In this document: one piece after another, positions 3,957-21,464 of the stretch | Numbering within the stretch: position 1 is the first letter of the stretch | Layout of the letters: each line of letters begins with the position of its first letter | Source of the DNA: a virus | Virus record (IMG/VR): IMGVR_UViG_3300050343_000055 | Span: 1 to 21,860 of that record | DNA: 21,860 nucleotides | Reading direction: 5' to 3' (one strand) | Notes under the pieces: model-generated | The model's input: the letters and a program-made list of their open reading frames with translations, nothing else | Databases searched by the model: none | Told to the model about the DNA's origin: nothing | Translations under genes and position numbers: made by a program

Positions 3957-4817
3957 TTATATTTCTTCTAAACCTGAGTACTGTCCTGTTTGACTTCTTA
4001 CGGCACCTGTTTGTGCTGATGATAGACCTGCTTGTTGTCCTAATATTCTTTGTATTCTTTTTTGTTCGTCAGGGTCTCCACTTAATCCACCAACTATATC
4101 TACAACATCTGAAGTTCTACCTTGTTGTTCTGCTAAAGATTGTATTTCTCCTGCTTGTCTAAAAGATTGTCTAGCTGTTTGTGCAGTTAGTCCTTGCTGT
4201 CTTAATGATTCAGCTTGAGTCAAAGATAAACTGACACCTTCTGCTGCAGCAAGACCACCTATCTGTCCTCTGACAATATTCTGCGATACAACTGAAGCTG
4301 CATCTATTGCACCAGATGCTAGTTGTTGACTTATGTTAGGGTCAATAGCACTAGCTATAATCTCTGCGTCTGTCAATTCTTGTCCAAAATTTAATTGATA
4401 ATATTCTTTTACTTCTGGCAAAGCAGTTAGAACATTCTGATATATAGACTGTACTCTTTCCCCAAACTCTTGAGGAGAAACTACATTCTCTATTAATGTT
4501 TCTATTCTGTCATTAGTAATAATAAGTTCAGCATTAACGCCAAGACTTTCTACTTTTCTTTTATAAGAATCTACTATCTGTAAGTATTCACTTTCAGAAA
4601 ACTTAACACTTATACCGTCAGGATTTAAGTTACCAGGAAAGGCATCTGCATACGCAGTGCTTTGTCTCATAACATTACCTGCTTCTGTACCATCATTACC
4701 ACTATCTATATATGCGTCAATGTATATTGACAACAGTGCGTCAGGAAAGTTTGGACCAAATTTTGCTTTAGCTTCAGAGATAATTAATGCTCTAGCTGAT
4801 GATGATAGTGTTGCCAT
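3957..4817 (-). CDS. Probable internal virion (ejection) protein, 286 aa
   Basis: I do not recognise a named family. The 286-residue protein looks almost wholly helical. It begins with 'LSSSARALIISEAKAKFG' and has a central unit 'VLTALPEVKEYYQLNFGQELTDAEIIASAIDP' (about residues 129-160). A long Gln/Ala/Ser-rich helical C-terminus follows (SLTQAESLRQQGLTAQTARQ; IQRILGQQAGLSSAQTG). Such Gln/Ala-rich helical proteins are typical of particle-internal proteins ejected with phage DNA, and this is the last gene of the block between portal and scaffold. Its start shares one base with the stop of the 593-codon gene, and AAGGA lies a few bases upstream. The internal role is inferred from context and composition. 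Confidence 0.65.
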   Translation of the reverse strand: MATLSSSARALIISEAKAKFGPNFPDALLSIYIDAYIDSGNDGTEAGNVMRQSTAYADAFPGNLNPDGISVKFSESEYLQIVDSYKRKVESLGVNAELIITNDRIETLIENVVSPQEFGERVQSIYQNVLTALPEVKEYYQLNFGQELTDAEIIASAIDPNISQQLASGAIDAASVVSQNIVRGQIGGLAAAEGVSLSLTQAESLRQQGLTAQTARQSFRQAGEIQSLAEQQGRTSDVVDIVGGLSGDPDEQKRIQRILGQQAGLSSAQTGAVRSQTGQYSGLEEI

Positions 4818-6598
4818 TATGTTCCTTGTCCTCTTACTATGCCTCTAGTTTGTGGTCCTGTTCCTAAAAAAGAACCTACGTCATCTGTAACTTTATCCAT
4901 TATAGTTTTGTTACCATTGTTAAGTCCATGTGTTGTAAGTACTTGTGTTGCTTTCGCCTGGTCATTAGCGTTTAATACTTCTATCCAATCTGTACTTTTC
5001 TCATCTACTCTTTCTCCAAGTAATTGAAAAGAAAAGTTTCTCCAAGGCTGTGCTATTTCTTCATAGGTTAAGTTCTCATCATAAACATCAGTACTAAATA
5101 ATACTTTCCTGATGTTCTTTAAACTGTCTCTAACTTGTTGAGCACCTACTTCTGGACTTTCAGCGTTACGAATTATGCCTGCGTATTTATCGATATCTGC
5201 TTGTTCGAAGGTACCATACAAAGGTCCTAGCCATTCTTCTGTTAATGCCTGTGCTGTTGCATATCCTGCTTGTGTTTCTGTAGGTTGTGCTTCAGAACCT
5301 TCTAACCAAGATGTCAAAGCATCTTCTCTTTGTATTCCTGATAACGGGTCTCCTAATGCTTTAGCTTGATTTAACCATGTTAGTTCTGTCCAGGTACCTG
5401 TAGTTAGTTTATTACCAAACCATTGTGTTAATGTTTCTCCATTAAATGTAACTTGGTCAGGATTACTAACGCCATTCTGTCTAAGAGTTTCTCTTGCTTT
5501 TATACGATTGTTCTTTAGTAATGCTTCAGCATCTGCAGGTAACTTAGATAAATCTTTATCTTGTGAAAGCAGTAACCAACTTCTTTCTTCTTGAGTGTGT
5601 GTCTGCCACCACTCTGTACCTTCCCATTCAAAATCTGCTATCTCTCTATTCTCAACAATACTTTCTAGCCATAGTGAATACATCTCATCATCTTCCATCC
5701 ATGGTCTTACTTCTTTTACTTTGTCAAAGTTAGAGGCTATCTGCTCAAAGAAACCACCTATACCAGATGCTTCCATATTATCTACATCTACTTCTACAAT
5801 ATTTCCTGATTGAAATGTACTATTCCATTTCTCAGAGTTTAAATCTATTGTTTGTTCTTGTGGTTTATCTACAGTAAAAAAGTTATTTATCTGTTCGTCT
5901 GTTGCAGTATATGCCATAGACAAACCTGTTTGTGGTATATCAAATGCTACATATTTTTGTCCACCAACATTCCATATCTGTCCACCTAATCTACCAAATA
6001 ATGTGTCATCTTCTACAACTACTGGGTCTTCTACAACTACTGGGTCTTCTACAACTACTGGGTCTTCTACAACTACTGGGTCTTCAACATTTGTAGATTC
6101 AGTTGTTGTTGTTTCAGGTACTGTGCCAGTAGCTCTTTGTTCTATAGTTTCTTTAGCTTTTTCTGCTGCTTGTTCTAAAGTTTCATTGGTAGCATTGATA
6201 GCTTTAAATTTGTCTATACGTGGCATACCTTCAGTCTCTGTTGTTTCTTCTTTAAGTTGGTCCATTCTGTAGTTTTCTAAATCTTCTTGGTACTCATCAG
6301 AAACAAGATAATCTATCTTTTGTTTTGCTTCTGCTTGTGCTTTTCTAGCATCAGATACATCTATAACACCATCATTTTGTTCTAGACTTGTAACTAACTT
6401 GTCTCGTTGTTCTTGTTCAATAGCTTCTAATGTAAGATAACCTTGACCAGGTACTGTATATTTAAAAGGATTTTGTGCAACTTCTTCTGGTGTTGTTTCA
6501 ACAGGTCTAAGTTTTGCTACTTCACTTTCATAAGTATCTTTATCAATATAACCATTAATTAGCTGTACTAATAAGTTACGTTCTTGTGCGTTTGCCAT
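4817..6598 (-). CDS. Probable internal virion protein with VVEDPV repeats, 593 aa
   Basis: This is a modular 593-residue protein of unrecognised family. Residues 1 to about 165 are charged and helical, with many E, K and Q. Residues about 170-197 are four tandem VEDPVV units, an acidic proline-containing spacer. A small beta-containing unit follows (GQIWNVGGQKYVAFDIPQTG). Residues about 300-345 are rich in W and E (WMEDDEMYSLWLES, FEWEGTEWW, ERSWLLL). The C-terminal third is helical ('AQALTEEWLGPLYGTFEQADIDKYAGIIRNA'). It sits among probable ejection genes and overlaps both neighbours by one base. A structural, virion-internal role is likely; an enzymatic site is not visible. The spacer probably acts as a flexible or extended linker. 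Confidence 0.65.
   Translation of the reverse strand: MANAQERNLLVQLINGYIDKDTYESEVAKLRPVETTPEEVAQNPFKYTVPGQGYLTLEAIEQEQRDKLVTSLEQNDGVIDVSDARKAQAEAKQKIDYLVSDEYQEDLENYRMDQLKEETTETEGMPRIDKFKAINATNETLEQAAEKAKETIEQRATGTVPETTTTESTNVEDPVVVEDPVVVEDPVVVEDPVVVEDDTLFGRLGGQIWNVGGQKYVAFDIPQTGLSMAYTATDEQINNFFTVDKPQEQTIDLNSEKWNSTFQSGNIVEVDVDNMEASGIGGFFEQIASNFDKVKEVRPWMEDDEMYSLWLESIVENREIADFEWEGTEWWQTHTQEERSWLLLSQDKDLSKLPADAEALLKNNRIKARETLRQNGVSNPDQVTFNGETLTQWFGNKLTTGTWTELTWLNQAKALGDPLSGIQREDALTSWLEGSEAQPTETQAGYATAQALTEEWLGPLYGTFEQADIDKYAGIIRNAESPEVGAQQVRDSLKNIRKVLFSTDVYDENLTYEEIAQPWRNFSFQLLGERVDEKSTDWIEVLNANDQAKATQVLTTHGLNNGNKTIMDKVTDDVGSFLGTGPQTRGIVRGQGT
6011..6082. repeat. 18-bp tandem repeat, four copies, inside the 593-codon gene
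   Basis: The unit TTCTACAACTACTGGGTC is repeated four times without change at 18-bp spacing, with degenerate edges. It is in frame and encodes the VEDPVV units. Identical copies at the nucleotide level point to recent expansion by slippage. Confidence 0.9.
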
Positions 6599-8890: not shown

Positions 8891-9870
8891 TACCTATTTA
8901 CAGCTCTTCTGCTTAATGAAGTAAGACTGTTTATTGTGTTTGCTGCTCTAGCACCAATTTGTCCTGCAGCTTGTGATTGTTTTTCTAAGTCTTCTCTACC
9001 TTCAAATACTTCATCGACTACTCCACTAATATCTTCTTGCAATCCCTCTACGTCTGGTTCTTGTGCTGCTGTGCCTGGAGTAAACGTTTCTTGTGCCATT
9101 GTGCTTGGAGTACTTACTGTTAAGTCTCCTTCTATAACTCTAGTGCTTCCTTCTCGTGCAGCAACATAACCGAATTCTGCAGGTGTACCTTGTCCTAGGT
9201 TTGCACTTGTTCTATTAAATTGACCAACTATTCCTGTTACCCTACTAGATATATAGTTTCTTTCTTCCGTGCTTAATGCACCACCTTTTCTAGCTTTTGC
9301 TTTTGTTAAAGTATCATTAAGTAACTCATCTATTTCTTCTTTTTCTATTTTAGGAGAACCTGTAGTCATTGCTTTACGTGCATTGTAATCAGAACGTACA
9401 GCAGATAAAGCTCCTAGCCAACTTATCTTGCCACCAGTATTCATACTAAACTCCATTAATTGTTTAATACCTTTAATAAATTCTTCGTCTACAGCAAGAC
9501 CAATAGTCTTACTTGCATCCATAATTCCTACGTTAGACATCTGTGTTTTTAAAAGTGCTATGTTATCTTTATTTAAATCTCTTGCCACTTCTCCTGCATC
9601 TCTAGCAAAATATACATGACGATATCCTTGTTGTGTTAAATATTCTTCTGCACCAACAGGTTTAATTATTTGTGTTCCATCAGGTCCATCAACTTGCATA
9701 TCATAATTAGACTGAAATCCTGTACCTAAAGGTTTATTTCTATCAGGGTCAGTTAATAAATCAATAATTAATTGTGTTGTATCTTTATCTTCTCCGTCTG
9801 GTACTACATTATCTGTATCAATAATATCTGATACGCTTCCAGTCCTTGGTATATATATGCTACTTACCAT
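8890..9870 (-). CDS. Probable internal virion protein, 326 aa
   Basis: The family is not recognised with confidence. The N-terminal 60 residues are acidic and probably flexible. A central helical region, 'KDNIALLKTQMSNVGIMD' through 'KGIKQLMEFSMNTGGKISWLGAL' (about 99-160), has the spacing of short repeats found in some phage structural proteins and loosely recalls peptidoglycan-binding helices, but I would not assert that. The C-terminal part is low-complexity (VSTPSTMAQETFTPGTAAQE) and ends in a helical, basic tail (ANTINSLTSLSRRAVNR). One-base overlaps on both sides tie it to the giant gene and the transglycosylase gene, so it is most likely a virion component made in step with them. Confidence 0.6.
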   Translation of the reverse strand: MVSSIYIPRTGSVSDIIDTDNVVPDGEDKDTTQLIIDLLTDPDRNKPLGTGFQSNYDMQVDGPDGTQIIKPVGAEEYLTQQGYRHVYFARDAGEVARDLNKDNIALLKTQMSNVGIMDASKTIGLAVDEEFIKGIKQLMEFSMNTGGKISWLGALSAVRSDYNARKAMTTGSPKIEKEEIDELLNDTLTKAKARKGGALSTEERNYISSRVTGIVGQFNRTSANLGQGTPAEFGYVAAREGSTRVIEGDLTVSTPSTMAQETFTPGTAAQEPDVEGLQEDISGVVDEVFEGREDLEKQSQAAGQIGARAANTINSLTSLSRRAVNR

Positions 9871-12800
9871 TAATTTTCAACTCCATACTTAACTACTTCA
9901 TTATAGAACACTTCTTCAAAGACTACACCAAACATAGGTTCTTTTACTATAATCTCTGATGCTTTCTGATATAACAAATCTCTTATTGCTTGTGCTTTTG
10001 CACTGTTAGTATTTGCTACCCACAACGCTGCGTCTTCTTTTGTAACTTTTTTTTGTCCAATTCTTACACCTTCTAATACATCATCTCTGTAATCTGTATA
10101 CTCTTTTATTACAGGTGTTATAGGAAAGTCTGCATACATAGGGTCATTAACAGCTTTAGTTATTAACTCTGCATTTGCAGAACGGTCTCCACCTTCTGTA
10201 GTTTGATAACCTGGTAGCTTAGCTAACTCTCCTGCTTTTGTTACAGGGTCTCCATAAGCTAAAGGAAACATTTTTGCTAAGACAATATCTACTTTTGCCA
10301 TTTCAGCTTGTAAACTTCCTTGTATCTCTCCTTCTTCATGTTTTCTTTTTTTCTCTGCTTTAGCTGCACGTTCTACTATTGATGCTGCATAGGTTGCACT
10401 TCTGTAATAAAACTCTTCTTGAGTTAAAGGAGTTACCATACCCATTCCTTTTAACGCACCATAAGCTGAGAAATCAACTTCTCCTTGTCCAAGACCTTCA
10501 AAGAAATATAAAGCATTGCCACCAATGTCAGCGAATAGTTCTGGATTTTCTAAATAGAAATCATACTCTGGTTTTGTTCTTGGTAGTTTACCTGATTCAG
10601 TAATTGATTTGCCTTTAACTTGCATTGAAGCAGAAGTAAAACTATCTTCTAAAGAATACTTATCTAATCCTAAAAACCTTACAAGGTCTTTAGTTGCCTG
10701 AAAGTCTGCTTCTTTAACACCCATAGTTGTTGCATACTCTGTTTTAATGTCTCTCCAAAAACTATGTATAACAGATAACTCTACAAAACTGTTCCAAACT
10801 AATCCACTGCTTTCGCCTTCTGCTCCATACCATTCTTGAAACGTGCTATCTTCTAAGTCTGCTCTATACAAAACATTCATCTTTGGTACTAATGGGTTAA
10901 TGTTTCTGTCCCACGCTTTTATCTGATAAATGTTATCTCTTATAATTGCAGCTTTATCAAATAAAAATTCTGGGTCTTGTACATCTTCTGGAAATAATAT
11001 AGAAGCTATTTGTGTTGATTGTGTAGTAGCTAATAAATACAAGTCTTCATCTAAACCTGTGAAGCCTAACTTAGAAGCAACTGAGTTAAGTATATTTTTA
11101 CCTGTAGCAGGTAACGTTTCTTCAAGTAACACTTCTCCAACAAAACTTTTTAAATCTCCTGCACCACCTTCAAACGGTAAACCGAATTGAAATATAGTTC
11201 TCTCTAATACTCTTCTTGCTTCTGGATTGTCTGCTGTTAATAAACCTACAGGTATAGCTACAACTGGTCCTAATGGTGGAAACAATCCACCACCTGCAAC
11301 GCCTAATGCTGATGTAGGAAAACTTCTTTTAAGTATAATTCCACTTTCATCAATACTCATGTCATCTGTCCACAATCCTTCTCCACCACTTTGTACATAA
11401 GATTCTAGAGGTGTGCCACCAACAGGCATAATTAAATAATTTTCTCCAAAACTATCTGTATAGATGATATTTTCTTCTACGCCTTTTCTATATGCAAATG
11501 CAACTTGTGCTGCAGCTCTAGTGTTTGTAGTTCCTAATTGAAACCATCGACCAAGAACTTCTCTATACGCTTCAAAGAATGGTAATCCTACTCTGTATGC
11601 TTCAGCAACATAACCTCTTTCAAGTAAGTTGTATAACAATCTGTTGTGTATTTCAAATGCTGCTTCTGCTGCTCTTCTATCTAAATCATCGTATGTCATG
11701 TTTCTTGTTATGTCTGCTCTGACATCAGCTCTATCTAACATTGTGTGATAATCTACTTCTGTCAGTTCTTGTACAATAGGACTTTGTTTAGGATTGTTAA
11801 TTATAAACTTACCTGTTTTCTCATCTAAGAAAGATTGCAACCCACCACGTTGTGCTAGTGTTACAACATCTTCATATTTCATGTTGCCTAGTTTTAATTG
11901 TGTTCTTAACTCTTTAACACTAGGTGTTGGGTTTTCTTTTAGATATGTTTCAAAATCTTTTAATACAGCATCTATATCTTTTTTAGTATTAGCACCGTAT
12001 GTTTCTCTTAACACTATACGCAAAGATGCTTTCTGTTCTGTTAATAACTTACCGTTAACAACTACTTCTTGTTTGTTTACATTGGAGTAGTACGAACCAA
12101 TCTTAGTATTTTCATCGCCTAGTCTTATGTTGGCAATGTTTTTGTCTGTAGTGTATGCTGTTCTTTCTGCGTTCTGTAAATTTACATTTAGTTCTAACTG
12201 ATGTTTAGTTGTTGCACCTAATATTCTTGGTGTGTGAATACCATCTGCATGATAAGCAACTAATGTTAGACCGTCATCTTTTTGAGTTACAGACTGCTTA
12301 ACTACTTTAGTCATTACATTATCTATTTCATCTTGGTCTAAACGTTTGTCATCTAATAATCTCTTAGCTTTTTTAACTAAATCATCTGATAGGTTAACTG
12401 GTACGTTAGGGTCATAATGATTTTTTAACATATCTGCTAATGCGTTTCTTTGTGCAAACACCATGTTGGCATCTATGTAATGTAAGTACGCTTGTTTGAA
12501 TGTAGGTATACGAACAAGTGCTGCTTCTGACTGACCTACTGTAAAAAACAATGCGTCAGTAAATGCTTTAAATTTACTTATCATTCCTTTAGGACTTACT
12601 TTTTCTATGCCAGGTACAGTAGTTGGTAAGTTTTCTGCATTTCTATTTATGAGTGGTGTCAATGTATTCTTAACACTTTGTGAGTTCATAGTTCTTAATA
12701 CTTCAAAATCACGTATGTCAACTTTTCCAACTTTACCTTGAGCTATAACATTAATTAAATCATCAGATGCTCCTGTAAAGTTATTAATAGTCATACGATG

Positions 12801-15800
12801 ATGTTTAACAAAGTCTAAAAAATCTTTATCGTTTCTAATTACAACTATGTTTGATGCTCTACCATCAACGTTTTGTCTTGACATAATTTTCCTATTTAAA
12901 GAAGCTATCTCATCCATTAAATATTTATTATTTTGTATTGCTTTTACAATATCAGCATCAGACAATCCCTGTCTCATAGCACCTGCAACTATAGGCATAA
13001 ATGGGTCATGTGCCATTTGAGTAACTAAATAATCAATATACGTTTCTATATAGTCATCATTTAATTTAAAAGCTAATGTACTTCCATCTGTTTGTGCTAC
13101 ATTCTTTTTTACTGTTTTTTGTACGTCAACGTATTTACCATTATCTTTTCTAAAGACAGAAGTAAACTTAGGGTCTCTTTCATACAGGTCTCTAACTTCT
13201 GGTACACCAAATTCTGAATTACCTTCTGTCAAAGCACCTAATGATTTTCTATATTTAAGTGGCAATTTTTCTGACAACTTACCACCTTCAATTGGTTTAG
13301 TAACTCTAAAAGGTCCACGCAAACTTGTAAGAGGAGTTACATCAATACCTTTAGTCTCCAAGTAACGTATCATAAGACCGTCAGGGTCATTAAATATCAT
13401 CTTCATGTATTCTGCAGGGTCTCTAAATATAGAAGCTAAACCTTTTGTAGATACTCGCAACATACCGTCTGTAGTTATTTTAAGTGGAAATGCAATACGT
13501 GTTATTAACTGTAGGGGCATCCATACTCTTGATATTAAACCAAAAGTTATATCTTCTGCACGAGATGGTACATCCATCACTAATTTTTTATACAAGAATG
13601 ATTCATCTGGTAAATCAGAAAAAGCATCTTTAGTTATTTGACCTAATGGAGTATCTGGGTCAAAGAAAGTACCCTTTGTTCCTTTATCTGCTTCTGCTCT
13701 AATTAGAGCTACGCTTTCATCTACCTGTTGAGAACCTACTAATTTATTTCTAAGTCTTTTTCTAATACCAGTATGTCTTAACGTGGCACGTAAATCAGGT
13801 ATGTTAATAGTCAAGTCCATAGCTTGTCCTGCTAGCCCTATAGATTTCTGTGACCATTGTGCTAACTCTTCTTCGTTAATAATCTGGTCAGCATACTGTG
13901 CTCTAGTTAAAGGGTCTACAAAACCTTCTTCATAAAATTTAGAATTTTGTGCTGCTCTATATGTTTTACCCTGGTCAGTAAATCCTCTTACGTCGTCTAA
14001 ATTGTTTTGGAAAAAATCTTGTAACTCTGCGTCTGACAAACCAAACACTGCTTTAAGTTGTATAGCACCTTCTCGCATAATTAATTCGTCATAATAAATA
14101 CTCTGTGCTAATTTATATTGTTTGTTTTGTATTGCTACATAAAACTGTTTAGACAAATCTTCTATAACAGGTGTAGGTATACTCATCATTCTTCCTGTTT
14201 TAGTAAACGTATCTACTGAACGTGAAGTGTCTGTTAGATATGCAAACGGTCTTGAAGGCAACCTAACATCAGAACCTAAGAAAATATCTTTAATACTTGA
14301 TGTAGCTGTTCTTATCCTACCTTTATCTTTAACACCACCACCTCTAATGTAGTTAGCAGTTATAGTATCGCCTGTCATGGTGTCAGCTATGTTATCAAGA
14401 AAGTTATCGCTAAATACTTTTGGTTGTAAGTGTACGTCTTTAGCTGCTGTATTCATTTTACCGTTAACACGTATGTCAGATATATAACCTTTAGTTAAAG
14501 AATTTTTTATAATATCAAAATATCCTTGTGGATTGTTTTTAGGATTATCTACTATGCGAAAAGCTACTTCAGGACTAAATCCTCTAAGTGTTAGTTCTGT
14601 AAACAATGGTGCATCTGCTTGTGCTAACTCAGCAACTTTATCAGAAAGTATTCTGATTGCATCATCTTGTCCGTTAGCAAAAAAATCTGCAGCAGTTCCT
14701 CCTGCTTGTAAGTGTTCATCTAATTGTTTGCCAACTCCAGTTAACACTTCTTCACTGGCTACGGCTCTACCACCTGCACCTACTCCTCTTGATGCCATAA
14801 GAAAAGGGTCTGTTTTTGCCATTGCATATAGATTAGAAGTAAAACCAATCCAAGCATTGAAACCATGCTTAGGGTCAAACTCCATATCACTAAGTTGTTC
14901 TTGTTCTAGTTCTTCAACTTTTTGTTTAGCAACTTCGTAATCATCTTTTGTAATTTGTCCTAAGTCGTATGCTGACTGTAATAAAAATAAATTAGTATCT
15001 GCTTCATCTTGTATTTCTGTACGGACTGCCATTTTAGGACTGTACTCTCCAGACAATGAACCAGTTAATGTATACCTAACTAAGTCTCCAAAGTTTGATG
15101 CAACACTAGCTTTTTTAAAACCTTCTCGTGTTTGTTCTGCTTCTTCTAAATATTTACCACGACCGAACCATCCTGCTAAACCTTCAGAGCTACCAGAACT
15201 AAGTACTTCGTTAAATGATTCTGTGTACACTTCTACAGCTTCGTTAAGTGTTAATTTTCTTTCTATACCACCAGTTTTTAATTTTATTTGTTCAGATAAC
15301 ACATCTGGAAATGCTTCTTCTATTGCTTCTAAATCTGTTTGTTGCAACATAGGATAACCTAAATCATCAACTAAATTTTTACTCATTAAAAAGTTTCTAG
15401 CTCTATCTGATATGTATGGTGCTTCTGTCGCTGCTTCTTTATTAATAAGAGAATTTATAAAGTTTCTTTGTGTTCTGTCAAAGTTTTCAGAAAACGAACC
15501 TACACCTGCAGCAAATGATTTAATTTTTATACCTAAAGGTATTTCATTTTTATCTGTATCTTTGTCTCCTACGTATCGTGCAAAGTCTTTGTCTATGTCT
15601 AAACCTTTACTTGCTGCCCATTCAGCTTGATATGCTTTCTGTTCTATACCAATATTATTGACAAACTGCGTACCGATACTTTCGAACAAACTGTTAAGTG
15701 TTAGTAAGGCTGCATTAATAACAGTACTTTTTCTTAGTTGTGCTTCTCCAAATAAATCTAACTGTGTTTGTCTCTGTATTTCTTTTGTGTTATTTACACC

Positions 15801-16124
15801 ATCTTTTATTCTGTTAAAAAACTTTTTAGAAAATTCTACAGTAGGAGATGTTTCTCCACTTGCATAGGTATATTCAATAGGTTTAGTTTGCATATATAGC
15901 TGTTGATATTGCTGAGTTGTTAAGTTCATAGTTGCAGAAGCAATAGCTAAATCATCTGTTTCGAATGGATTCATAGCTTTAAATGTTTCTGTTTTGTTAG
16001 CTAGTGCATCTATGCCTTCATCGCCAAGCATATCTTTTTGTACGGCAAGAGCTTGTTCTTCTGCTGCTAGTTGATTAGCTTCTTCTAATCTTTCTTCTCC
16101 CCACTTCAAGTAATATGAAGCCAT
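9870..16124 (-). CDS. Giant internal virion/ejection protein, 2084 aa
   Basis: The largest gene, about 29 percent of the window, encodes an uninterrupted 2084-residue protein. The N-terminal 500 residues are charged and helical. Around residue 865 'SRVWMPLQLITRIAFPLKIT' is followed by helical stretches, and near 1200 'FFTVGQSEAALVRIPTFKQA' recalls segments seen in very long structural proteins of marine and actinobacterial phages. At about 1287-1345 a strand-rich stretch (LTLVAYHADG, TAYTTDKNIANIRL) interrupts the helices and could be a separate domain. Near 1600-1620 there is a Gly/Pro-rich hydrophobic segment (GVAGGGLFPPLGPVVAIPVG). The C-terminus is helical and charged. No tape-measure periodicity is evident. 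Position after the portal and before a transglycosylase fits a multifunctional ejected protein. I cannot assign an enzymatic activity. Confidence 0.65.
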   Translation of the reverse strand: MASYYLKWGEERLEEANQLAAEEQALAVQKDMLGDEGIDALANKTETFKAMNPFETDDLAIASATMNLTTQQYQQLYMQTKPIEYTYASGETSPTVEFSKKFFNRIKDGVNNTKEIQRQTQLDLFGEAQLRKSTVINAALLTLNSLFESIGTQFVNNIGIEQKAYQAEWAASKGLDIDKDFARYVGDKDTDKNEIPLGIKIKSFAAGVGSFSENFDRTQRNFINSLINKEAATEAPYISDRARNFLMSKNLVDDLGYPMLQQTDLEAIEEAFPDVLSEQIKLKTGGIERKLTLNEAVEVYTESFNEVLSSGSSEGLAGWFGRGKYLEEAEQTREGFKKASVASNFGDLVRYTLTGSLSGEYSPKMAVRTEIQDEADTNLFLLQSAYDLGQITKDDYEVAKQKVEELEQEQLSDMEFDPKHGFNAWIGFTSNLYAMAKTDPFLMASRGVGAGGRAVASEEVLTGVGKQLDEHLQAGGTAADFFANGQDDAIRILSDKVAELAQADAPLFTELTLRGFSPEVAFRIVDNPKNNPQGYFDIIKNSLTKGYISDIRVNGKMNTAAKDVHLQPKVFSDNFLDNIADTMTGDTITANYIRGGGVKDKGRIRTATSSIKDIFLGSDVRLPSRPFAYLTDTSRSVDTFTKTGRMMSIPTPVIEDLSKQFYVAIQNKQYKLAQSIYYDELIMREGAIQLKAVFGLSDAELQDFFQNNLDDVRGFTDQGKTYRAAQNSKFYEEGFVDPLTRAQYADQIINEEELAQWSQKSIGLAGQAMDLTINIPDLRATLRHTGIRKRLRNKLVGSQQVDESVALIRAEADKGTKGTFFDPDTPLGQITKDAFSDLPDESFLYKKLVMDVPSRAEDITFGLISRVWMPLQLITRIAFPLKITTDGMLRVSTKGLASIFRDPAEYMKMIFNDPDGLMIRYLETKGIDVTPLTSLRGPFRVTKPIEGGKLSEKLPLKYRKSLGALTEGNSEFGVPEVRDLYERDPKFTSVFRKDNGKYVDVQKTVKKNVAQTDGSTLAFKLNDDYIETYIDYLVTQMAHDPFMPIVAGAMRQGLSDADIVKAIQNNKYLMDEIASLNRKIMSRQNVDGRASNIVVIRNDKDFLDFVKHHRMTINNFTGASDDLINVIAQGKVGKVDIRDFEVLRTMNSQSVKNTLTPLINRNAENLPTTVPGIEKVSPKGMISKFKAFTDALFFTVGQSEAALVRIPTFKQAYLHYIDANMVFAQRNALADMLKNHYDPNVPVNLSDDLVKKAKRLLDDKRLDQDEIDNVMTKVVKQSVTQKDDGLTLVAYHADGIHTPRILGATTKHQLELNVNLQNAERTAYTTDKNIANIRLGDENTKIGSYYSNVNKQEVVVNGKLLTEQKASLRIVLRETYGANTKKDIDAVLKDFETYLKENPTPSVKELRTQLKLGNMKYEDVVTLAQRGGLQSFLDEKTGKFIINNPKQSPIVQELTEVDYHTMLDRADVRADITRNMTYDDLDRRAAEAAFEIHNRLLYNLLERGYVAEAYRVGLPFFEAYREVLGRWFQLGTTNTRAAAQVAFAYRKGVEENIIYTDSFGENYLIMPVGGTPLESYVQSGGEGLWTDDMSIDESGIILKRSFPTSALGVAGGGLFPPLGPVVAIPVGLLTADNPEARRVLERTIFQFGLPFEGGAGDLKSFVGEVLLEETLPATGKNILNSVASKLGFTGLDEDLYLLATTQSTQIASILFPEDVQDPEFLFDKAAIIRDNIYQIKAWDRNINPLVPKMNVLYRADLEDSTFQEWYGAEGESSGLVWNSFVELSVIHSFWRDIKTEYATTMGVKEADFQATKDLVRFLGLDKYSLEDSFTSASMQVKGKSITESGKLPRTKPEYDFYLENPELFADIGGNALYFFEGLGQGEVDFSAYGALKGMGMVTPLTQEEFYYRSATYAASIVERAAKAEKKRKHEEGEIQGSLQAEMAKVDIVLAKMFPLAYGDPVTKAGELAKLPGYQTTEGGDRSANAELITKAVNDPMYADFPITPVIKEYTDYRDDVLEGVRIGQKKVTKEDAALWVANTNSAKAQAIRDLLYQKASEIIVKEPMFGVVFEEVFYNEVVKYGVEN

Positions 16125-21043: not shown

Positions 21044-21076
21044 CAAAACCCCGTTCGGGCAGGAACAGGGCTGTGT
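21041..21076 (-). terminator. Terminator-like hairpin just upstream of the late promoter
   Basis: ACACA/TGTGT, CCC/GGG and GTTC/GAAC pair in nested order with small internal mismatches around a six-base loop. On the minus strand the inner stem is followed directly by TTTTGTGTT, a weak U-tract. It could stop upstream transcription before the late promoter, or alternatively be a regulatory RNA stem. It abuts and slightly overlaps the promoter. Confidence 0.45.
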
Positions 21077-21139: not shown

Positions 21140-21216
21140 AAAAAAAAATTTTTATTAGGTAGGAGGATGCCGTTGCTCTTGCGAGTTCTAACATCCCTGG
21201 TCTAAGACGTCCTACC
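21140..21216 (-). ncRNA. Candidate small structured RNA with three-way junction
   Basis: Read on the minus strand, GGTAGGA (21216-21210) pairs with TCCTACC (21164-21158) over seven perfect pairs. Inside are a small hairpin GTC-TTA-GAC and a second arm in which GGATG pairs with CATCC, continuing through an internal loop to CTC-GCAA-GAG, a GNRA tetraloop. The GCAA loop is on the minus strand, which favours that strand. After the closing stem come nine bases and then nine T residues (21148-21140), a possible but poorly spaced terminator. A promoter-like sequence lies about 45 bases upstream. I cannot match it to a named RNA family. Confidence 0.45.
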
Positions 21217-21258
21217 ATCAATCGAGATACATAATACAAAGGGAATGTATATGTTTTT

Positions 21259-21285
21259 ATTATACTACATTGTGCATTTAGTCAA
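21259..21285 (-). promoter_or_regulatory. Promoter-like TTGACT / TATAAT
   Basis: The minus strand has TTGACT and a perfect TATAAT separated by 15 bases, shorter than the preferred 17. The start would be near 21252, in front of the candidate structured RNA. Confidence 0.42.
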
Positions 21286-21354: not shown

Positions 21355-21464
21355 CTATTAATACTACACTTAACATCTCGACCTGCTATAGTAAGTTTTA
21401 ACAAATATTTTTATTAAGTACTTTGTTACAAGTAAAGTTGCCATCGAGGGGCAGAAAGTTAGGG

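Follow-up and report, generated by a model that had tools for sequence, protein, structure and literature searches.

The minus strand of the window, by which we mean the whole 21,860-base stretch of viral DNA analysed here, almost certainly encodes a structured RNA at positions 21216-21158. This three-way junction (3WJ) is, as far as promoter spacing, folding and comparison of relatives tell, the 3′ domain of a longer RNA, designated RNA B, which has its own conserved promoter (P2) and is probably regulatory, one of the options raised in an earlier reading of the sequence alone. We lean towards the interpretation that RNA B is a trans-acting phage small RNA (sRNA) that represses leftward genes by base pairing. 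According to this model, RNA B would be made from P2, within a control region between two divergent gene sets, and its proposed seed UUCCCUUUGUAUUAUG would pair with the Shine-Dalgarno region of leftward (probably early) phage mRNAs, thereby blocking their translation. The segment UUCCCUUUGUAUU would remain unpaired while the 3WJ forms, and the junction itself would most likely protect RNA B or serve as a protein handle. The features discussed below are collected in Table 1.

Table 1. Positions of RNA B, RNA A and neighbouring elements in the window, and predicted target leaders in two related genomes
Feature	Position	Strand	Sequence or basis
Putative leftward promoter -10 (opposite gene set)	21384-21392	plus	TGC TATAGT; TGnTATAGT conserved in many relatives
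Putative RNA A -10	21366-21361	minus	TAGTAT; TGGTAGTAT or TGGTATTAT in many relatives
RNA A, long hairpin	21354-21294	minus	UGAGGGUUGCGU/ACGUAGCCCUCA around CUAGG/CCUAG; comparison, folding
RNA A loop, 15 nt, anti-Shine-Dalgarno-like	21332-21318	minus	AGUUUCCUCCUUUCG
Promoter P2 of RNA B	21285-21259	minus	TTGACT 21285-21280, 15-nt spacer, TATAAT 21264-21259
RNA B, predicted transcript	21252-21158	minus	start ~21252 from promoter spacing and fold
RNA B 5′ hairpin	21250-21227	minus	AUACA(U)/(A)UGUAU, loop with UUCCCUU(UGUAUU); fold
RNA B proposed seed	21245-21230	minus	UUCCCUUUGUAUUAUG; complementarity to leftward leaders
3WJ, 59 nt	21216-21158	minus	sequence, fold, covariance model
3WJ stem P1	21216-21210/21164-21158	minus	GGTAGGA/TCCTACC, 7 pairs
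3WJ arm P2	21208-21206/21202-21200	minus	GTC-TTA-GAC
3WJ arm P3	21196-21190/21171-21165	minus	GGATGTT/GGCATCC, leads into P3b
3WJ P3b	21185-21183/21178-21176	minus	CTC-GCAA-GAG; GCAA loop 21182-21179
A5T9 tract (includes the T-run of the earlier reading)	21153-21140		sequence, conservation
Intrinsic-terminator-like hairpin, before late genes	21072-21047	minus	terminator scan; conserved GGGGTTTTGTGTTATA context in relatives
Putative late promoter -10	21041-21036	minus	TATACT after TGT; sequence
Predicted target leader of RNA B	G018		TAATACAAAGGAG
Predicted target leader of RNA B	G002		ATACTAAACAAAGGAG

Structure and covariation of the three-way junction

The sequence-only reading had proposed a 59-base minus-strand element with a seven-pair closing stem, two inner arms and a GCAA tetraloop, and we found this element as described. 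RNA folding gave -21 kcal/mol for the minus strand (z = -2.7 relative to shuffled sequences) and a weaker fold for the plus strand (z = -1.7). A covariance model trained on 11 near-identical copies also recovered L135 (E = 1e-13) and L096 (E = 3e-9); these two independent members are the only aligned sequences outside the training set. In the joint alignment of 13 distinct sequences, all 258 of the 258 scored cells were standard pairs, while slid controls of the same alignment reached 34-63% pairing. Compensatory changes, which the earlier reading had suggested looking for among homologues, were indeed present: six pairs are changed on both sides (shuffled mean 1.3), and none of 500 shuffles reached the observed covariation score. 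Arm P2, for example, changes from GUC/GAC to GCG/CGC in L135, and P3b from CUC/GAG to CUA/UAG. The stems also show U-G/U-A and A-U/G-U alternations consistent with the minus strand. In L096, the whole distal arm was replaced, including the GCAA loop and with loss of the internal loop, and in L135 the P2 arm was changed; both preserve the stems.

In L109 and L186, the same place is occupied by another 3WJ, an assignment made by eye and by folding alone; it has a GCAA loop, but its stem sequences (GGUUGGG/CCCAACC) are unrelated. When the search was relaxed to find more relatives of the junction, it returned mostly chance matches in coding sequence and one further L135-type copy. The Infernal search suggested earlier was performed against Rfam 15: in the whole window, cmscan with E values up to 10 produced nothing but chance matches below the gathering score, so that no known family was matched, and ten related loci (107 kb) contained no family match either. 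The packaging RNA of phi29, for which Rfam presumably includes a family, had no match in the window when the whole library was used.

Promoter and layout of RNA B

The promoter TTGACT-N15-TATAAT was present as the earlier reading had it, and its 15-nt spacing is conserved: the pattern TTGhhy-N15-TAnnnT occurred in 53 of 70 related neighbourhoods, compared to a mean of 1.9 and a maximum of 6 after shuffling. Promoter spacing, folding and the same layout in relatives place the start of RNA B at about 21252. The suggestion that the junction might be part of a longer RNA is thus supported, whereas the description as a self-contained small RNA gene holds only in part, because the 3WJ makes up just one domain of the predicted transcript and a second structured RNA lies nearby. 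The candidate 3′ ends of RNA B are the end of the 3WJ, the A/T tract, or the terminator near 21047. Over its full 98 nt, the window's RNA B exceeds shuffled sequences in stability by a small margin only (z = -1.3).

A counterpart of the 5′ hairpin stem, AUACAUA/UAUGUAU, can be read from the sequence of L176. Throughout the wider family, RNA B consists of a 5′ structured part, followed by a pyrimidine-rich segment and a hairpin domain of the GCAA type, in which a third arm may be present or absent. Both sequence and fold differ strongly between subfamilies, and the corresponding seeds of relatives read CCUCCUUUCUUUGUUUGU, CCUCCUUUCUGAUUGA and others.

RNA A and the divergent control region

Directly upstream of P2 lies a second structured element, RNA A. 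The virus collection contains 98 stretches with its nearly invariant 23-nt core, which was absent from every genome of a set of 84,980 prokaryote species. The inner stem shows compensatory changes (GUAGG/CCUAC to GUAAG/CUUAC, CUAGG/CCUAG and CAGG/CCUG). Since the outer stem was too variable for MAFFT, RNAalifold saw the inner stem only, and we compared the folding energies of cognate and swapped arms instead: outer arms gave -21.3 kcal/mol with their own partner vs -13.4 kcal/mol with swapped partners. These outer stems folded better on the minus strand in 65 of 69 sequences. One copy of the core, in L219 (2153-2243, minus), which is a 54% relative by TerL, resides in a different gene context and is accompanied by a promoter-like sequence and a textbook terminator hairpin, which supports the view that RNA A is a free-standing sRNA.

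The long genes of the window, encoding the terminase large subunit (TerL), an SU10-type major capsid protein and their neighbours, are all located on the minus strand. In the related locus L082, the region described here falls within about 900 bp of noncoding DNA, flanked by rightward structural genes on one side and, on the other, by small non-structural ORFs that run leftward; by analogy to other phages, the latter are probably early genes. TerL shares less than 30% identity with that of any isolated phage. In the search for a host, relatives of TerL turned up only on two contigs of metagenome-assembled genomes, one from a Gammaproteobacterium and one from a Rhodobacteraceae bacterium, and nothing indicated that either organism is the host. 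An actinobacterial host had been suspected, but 18 contigs contained no WhiB. The window further encodes a 2,084-amino-acid protein without a PHROGs match (9870-16124, minus), in a short phage genome, and a predicted protein with tandem VVVEDPVVVEDP repeats (4817-6598, minus).

Complementarity between RNA B and the leaders of leftward genes

Leaders of leftward genes are rich in Shine-Dalgarno sequences and late leaders are not, as reflected by the pairing energy of the RNA A loop (-9.5 vs -4.9 kcal/mol, p = 6e-26). The 16S tail gave the same contrast, and the preference of RNA A for leftward leaders did not exceed that of this tail. Whereas the RNA A loop hardly varies, the RNA B segment changes from one subfamily to the next, which makes RNA B the more informative of the two with respect to co-variation of seed and target.

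Among 21 genomes, the RNA B segment paired better with the leftward leaders of its own genome than with those of swapped genomes (residual -1.31 kcal/mol, p = 0.0002 by permutation), the seeds having been picked by a pyrimidine-motif rule after the first matches were seen. The signal persisted without the two strongest genomes, G002 and G018 (p = 0.004), and with one genome per distinct segment (p = 0.0004), and there was no signal in the controls, with p = 0.15 for coding windows and p = 0.78 for late leaders. When an 18-nt window was moved along RNA B, the signal peaked exactly at the pyrimidine segment (p = 0.001), with no peak in the 3′ domain. Part of the complementarity to leftward leaders reflects a generic anti-Shine-Dalgarno character. 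Both the better match to the own genome and the peak at the segment would be expected of an sRNA that acts in trans and is protected by its 3′ domain.

On the leftward strand of G002, the longest stretches complementary to RNA B are two perfect 14-nt matches, which cover the Shine-Dalgarno region in the ribosome-binding sites of two leftward genes. G018, a close sister nearly identical to the window (locus L082, 99% identity over the region described here), contains an 11-nt perfect complement of CCUUUGUAUUA (21242-21232), located 18 nt before a start and over the ribosome-binding site of a leftward gene. We found no single conserved target gene: two protein families recurred, each in two or three genomes, and in the subfamily to which the window belongs, the best predicted targets are small proteins unrelated to one another. 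A repeated leader motif, GAGTCTAAGTA, precedes leftward genes (L082 3800-4400, G002) and overlaps the predicted RNA B target sites.

A broader and more tentative idea is that, in a widespread family of uncultured marine phages, two tandem sRNAs partly run the switch from early to late gene expression, with the invariant anti-Shine-Dalgarno loop of RNA A and the co-evolving seed of RNA B together silencing early translation. The selectivity of such a switch for early genes would follow from the leftward genes being rich in Shine-Dalgarno sequences and the late genes not.

Alternative explanations

The main rival to a trans-acting sRNA, which we consider unlikely, is that RNA B acts in cis, as the leader of the late transcript that carries the structural genes. 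In this case, the 3WJ and the GCAA hairpin could affect the polymerase that has just transcribed them, through antitermination as with nut of lambda or put of HK022, or could influence the leader downstream, allowing transcription from P2 to pass the hairpin at 21072-21047. The arrangement is compatible with this, since the RNA follows directly after a promoter and precedes both this hairpin and the whole structural operon, and in some relatives it is directly followed by an ORF. The put RNAs of HK022 comprise about 70 nt and two stem-loops, with putL located just after its promoter (PMC9378689). But a cis-acting leader does not predict a genome-specific complementarity to leaders on the opposite strand, and the strong variation of RNA B between subfamilies argues against it as well. 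We regard it as improbable that the region acts at the DNA level, for instance as an origin of replication or as an operator present in several copies, with inverted repeats and shared motifs that resemble RNA stems and complementarity. The conserved A5+T6+ tract does look like a DNA element, and the complementarity to leftward leaders amounts to a DNA motif repeated in one orientation, so that it could mirror a shared motif of double-stranded DNA. However, only one of the two strands shows G-U wobbles in the stems, the RNA A outer stems fold better on the minus strand in most sequences, and the shared motif lies over the Shine-Dalgarno region before starts, with flat controls elsewhere.

The earlier reading had also considered a ligand-binding element. 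A riboswitch or aptamer would be in line with the compact junction and with the conserved GUCUUAGACCA and GRAA/CAAC internal loop within the window's subfamily, but it appears highly improbable, given that L096 loses the GCAA and internal loops and L135 alters arm P2 while the stems are kept. Moreover, relatives share no gene downstream, where a small CxxC ORF, a ferredoxin ORF or no ORF at all follows, and no Rfam riboswitch was matched. Least probable of all, and in our view close to negligible, is that the conservation is due to a small protein. It had been stated that no coding frame sensibly overlaps the element. A 42-codon ORF (MVGRLRPGMLELARATASSYL...; 21218-21090) does overlap the 3WJ, and its first 20 or so codons are open across the window's subfamily, but relatives with an intact fold have lost the frame: in L135 a stop follows after seven codons, and in L096 the start codon is missing and a stop comes early, while double changes maintain the base pairs. 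Nor is the ATG preceded by a Shine-Dalgarno sequence. We therefore rejected the coding interpretation.

Comparison with known RNAs

Phage-encoded sRNAs are a known class, but the RNA families described here, their tandem arrangement and the co-varying seed appear to be new: nothing resembling RNA A or RNA B was found in the literature searched, and neither has an Rfam match. The cyanobacterial Yfr1, a short RNA as well, likewise combines two structured parts with a pyrimidine-rich segment that is conserved (ACUCCUCACAC), and its helices probably keep this segment free and the RNA stable (PMC2190773). In contrast to RNA B, Yfr1 is cellular and its motif invariant, whereas RNA B is phage-borne, has a segment that varies with the matched leaders, and has a 3′ domain that appears to be a junction or GCAA hairpin rather than a terminator. 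The Yfr1 undecanucleotide between two hairpins was absent from RNA A and RNA B. RNA A shares a fixed anti-Shine-Dalgarno loop on a variable, covarying stem with the Rhizobiales sRNAs SmelA075 and SmelA099, whose hairpin loops carry CCUCCUCCC (PMC3927594). The latter are cellular and form three or four hairpins, while RNA A is a single long hairpin with the loop AGUUUCCUCCUUUCG and occurs in phages.

The trans-acting phage sRNAs PreS (lambda), VpdS (VP882) and 24B_1 (Phi24B) are likewise small phage RNAs regulating post-transcriptionally, in several cases by base pairing (PMC12197685). They derive from cultured temperate phages, while RNA B belongs to an uncultured marine family, contains a 3WJ domain and has its apparent targets among the phage's own leftward genes. 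HK022 put RNA is, like RNA B, a structured RNA directly after a phage promoter, but it is a two-stem cis element acting on polymerase (PMC9378689), and the evidence for RNA B points to a pairing segment. Few phage sRNAs have a known function, and those covered in a review are mostly from cultured phages (PMC12197685). Here, sequence comparison alone led to a new RNA family with a seed and predicted targets, whose pairing co-varies between genomes and is thus testable. If the model is correct, an RNA-borne, global post-transcriptional switch from early to late genes would be a new layer of phage timing in an abundant group of uncultured viruses.

Elements downstream of RNA B

The nine-T run (21148-21140) had been listed as part of a candidate self-contained small RNA gene. 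It is separated from the 3WJ stem by 9 nt (TAATAAAAA) and preceded by A5, forming an A5T9 tract rather than a canonical terminator. Of 71 relatives, 63 carry an A5+T6+ tract no more than 700 nt downstream of RNA A, and the remaining 492 kb of these loci contain none. Because an ORF, encoding either a small CxxC...CxxC protein or a 4Fe-4S ferredoxin (L135), intervenes between RNA and tract in relatives, the tract is probably a separate element acting at the DNA level. Its distance from the stem, the preceding A5 and its retention even beyond an intervening ORF speak against a function as terminator of RNA B, and we set this interpretation aside. Across the family (the window, L157, L128, L116 and many others), A5-9T6-9 adjoins RNA B and is very rare elsewhere in these loci; bent DNA or a recombination or packaging signal may be considered. 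The slot between RNA B and the tract is either empty or filled by a CxxC...CxxC ORF (L169, L111 and others), a ferredoxin gene (L101; L135, 527-770) or a tRNA-like sequence (L155, about 5750-5850), in which ARAGORN called no tRNA.

The terminator-like hairpin lies 86-111 nt beyond the 3WJ. In L109, the closing stem of its own 3WJ leads straight into CUUUU. Close relatives repeat TGTTATA after a hairpin of the 21072-21047 type. Finally, in L157, L188 and others, tandem hairpins (ACCTAAG..CTTAGGT and ATCGTGTA..TACACGAT) are located downstream of the A/T tract, after a TATAAT-like site and before the late genes, where they could act as an mRNA 5′ stabiliser.
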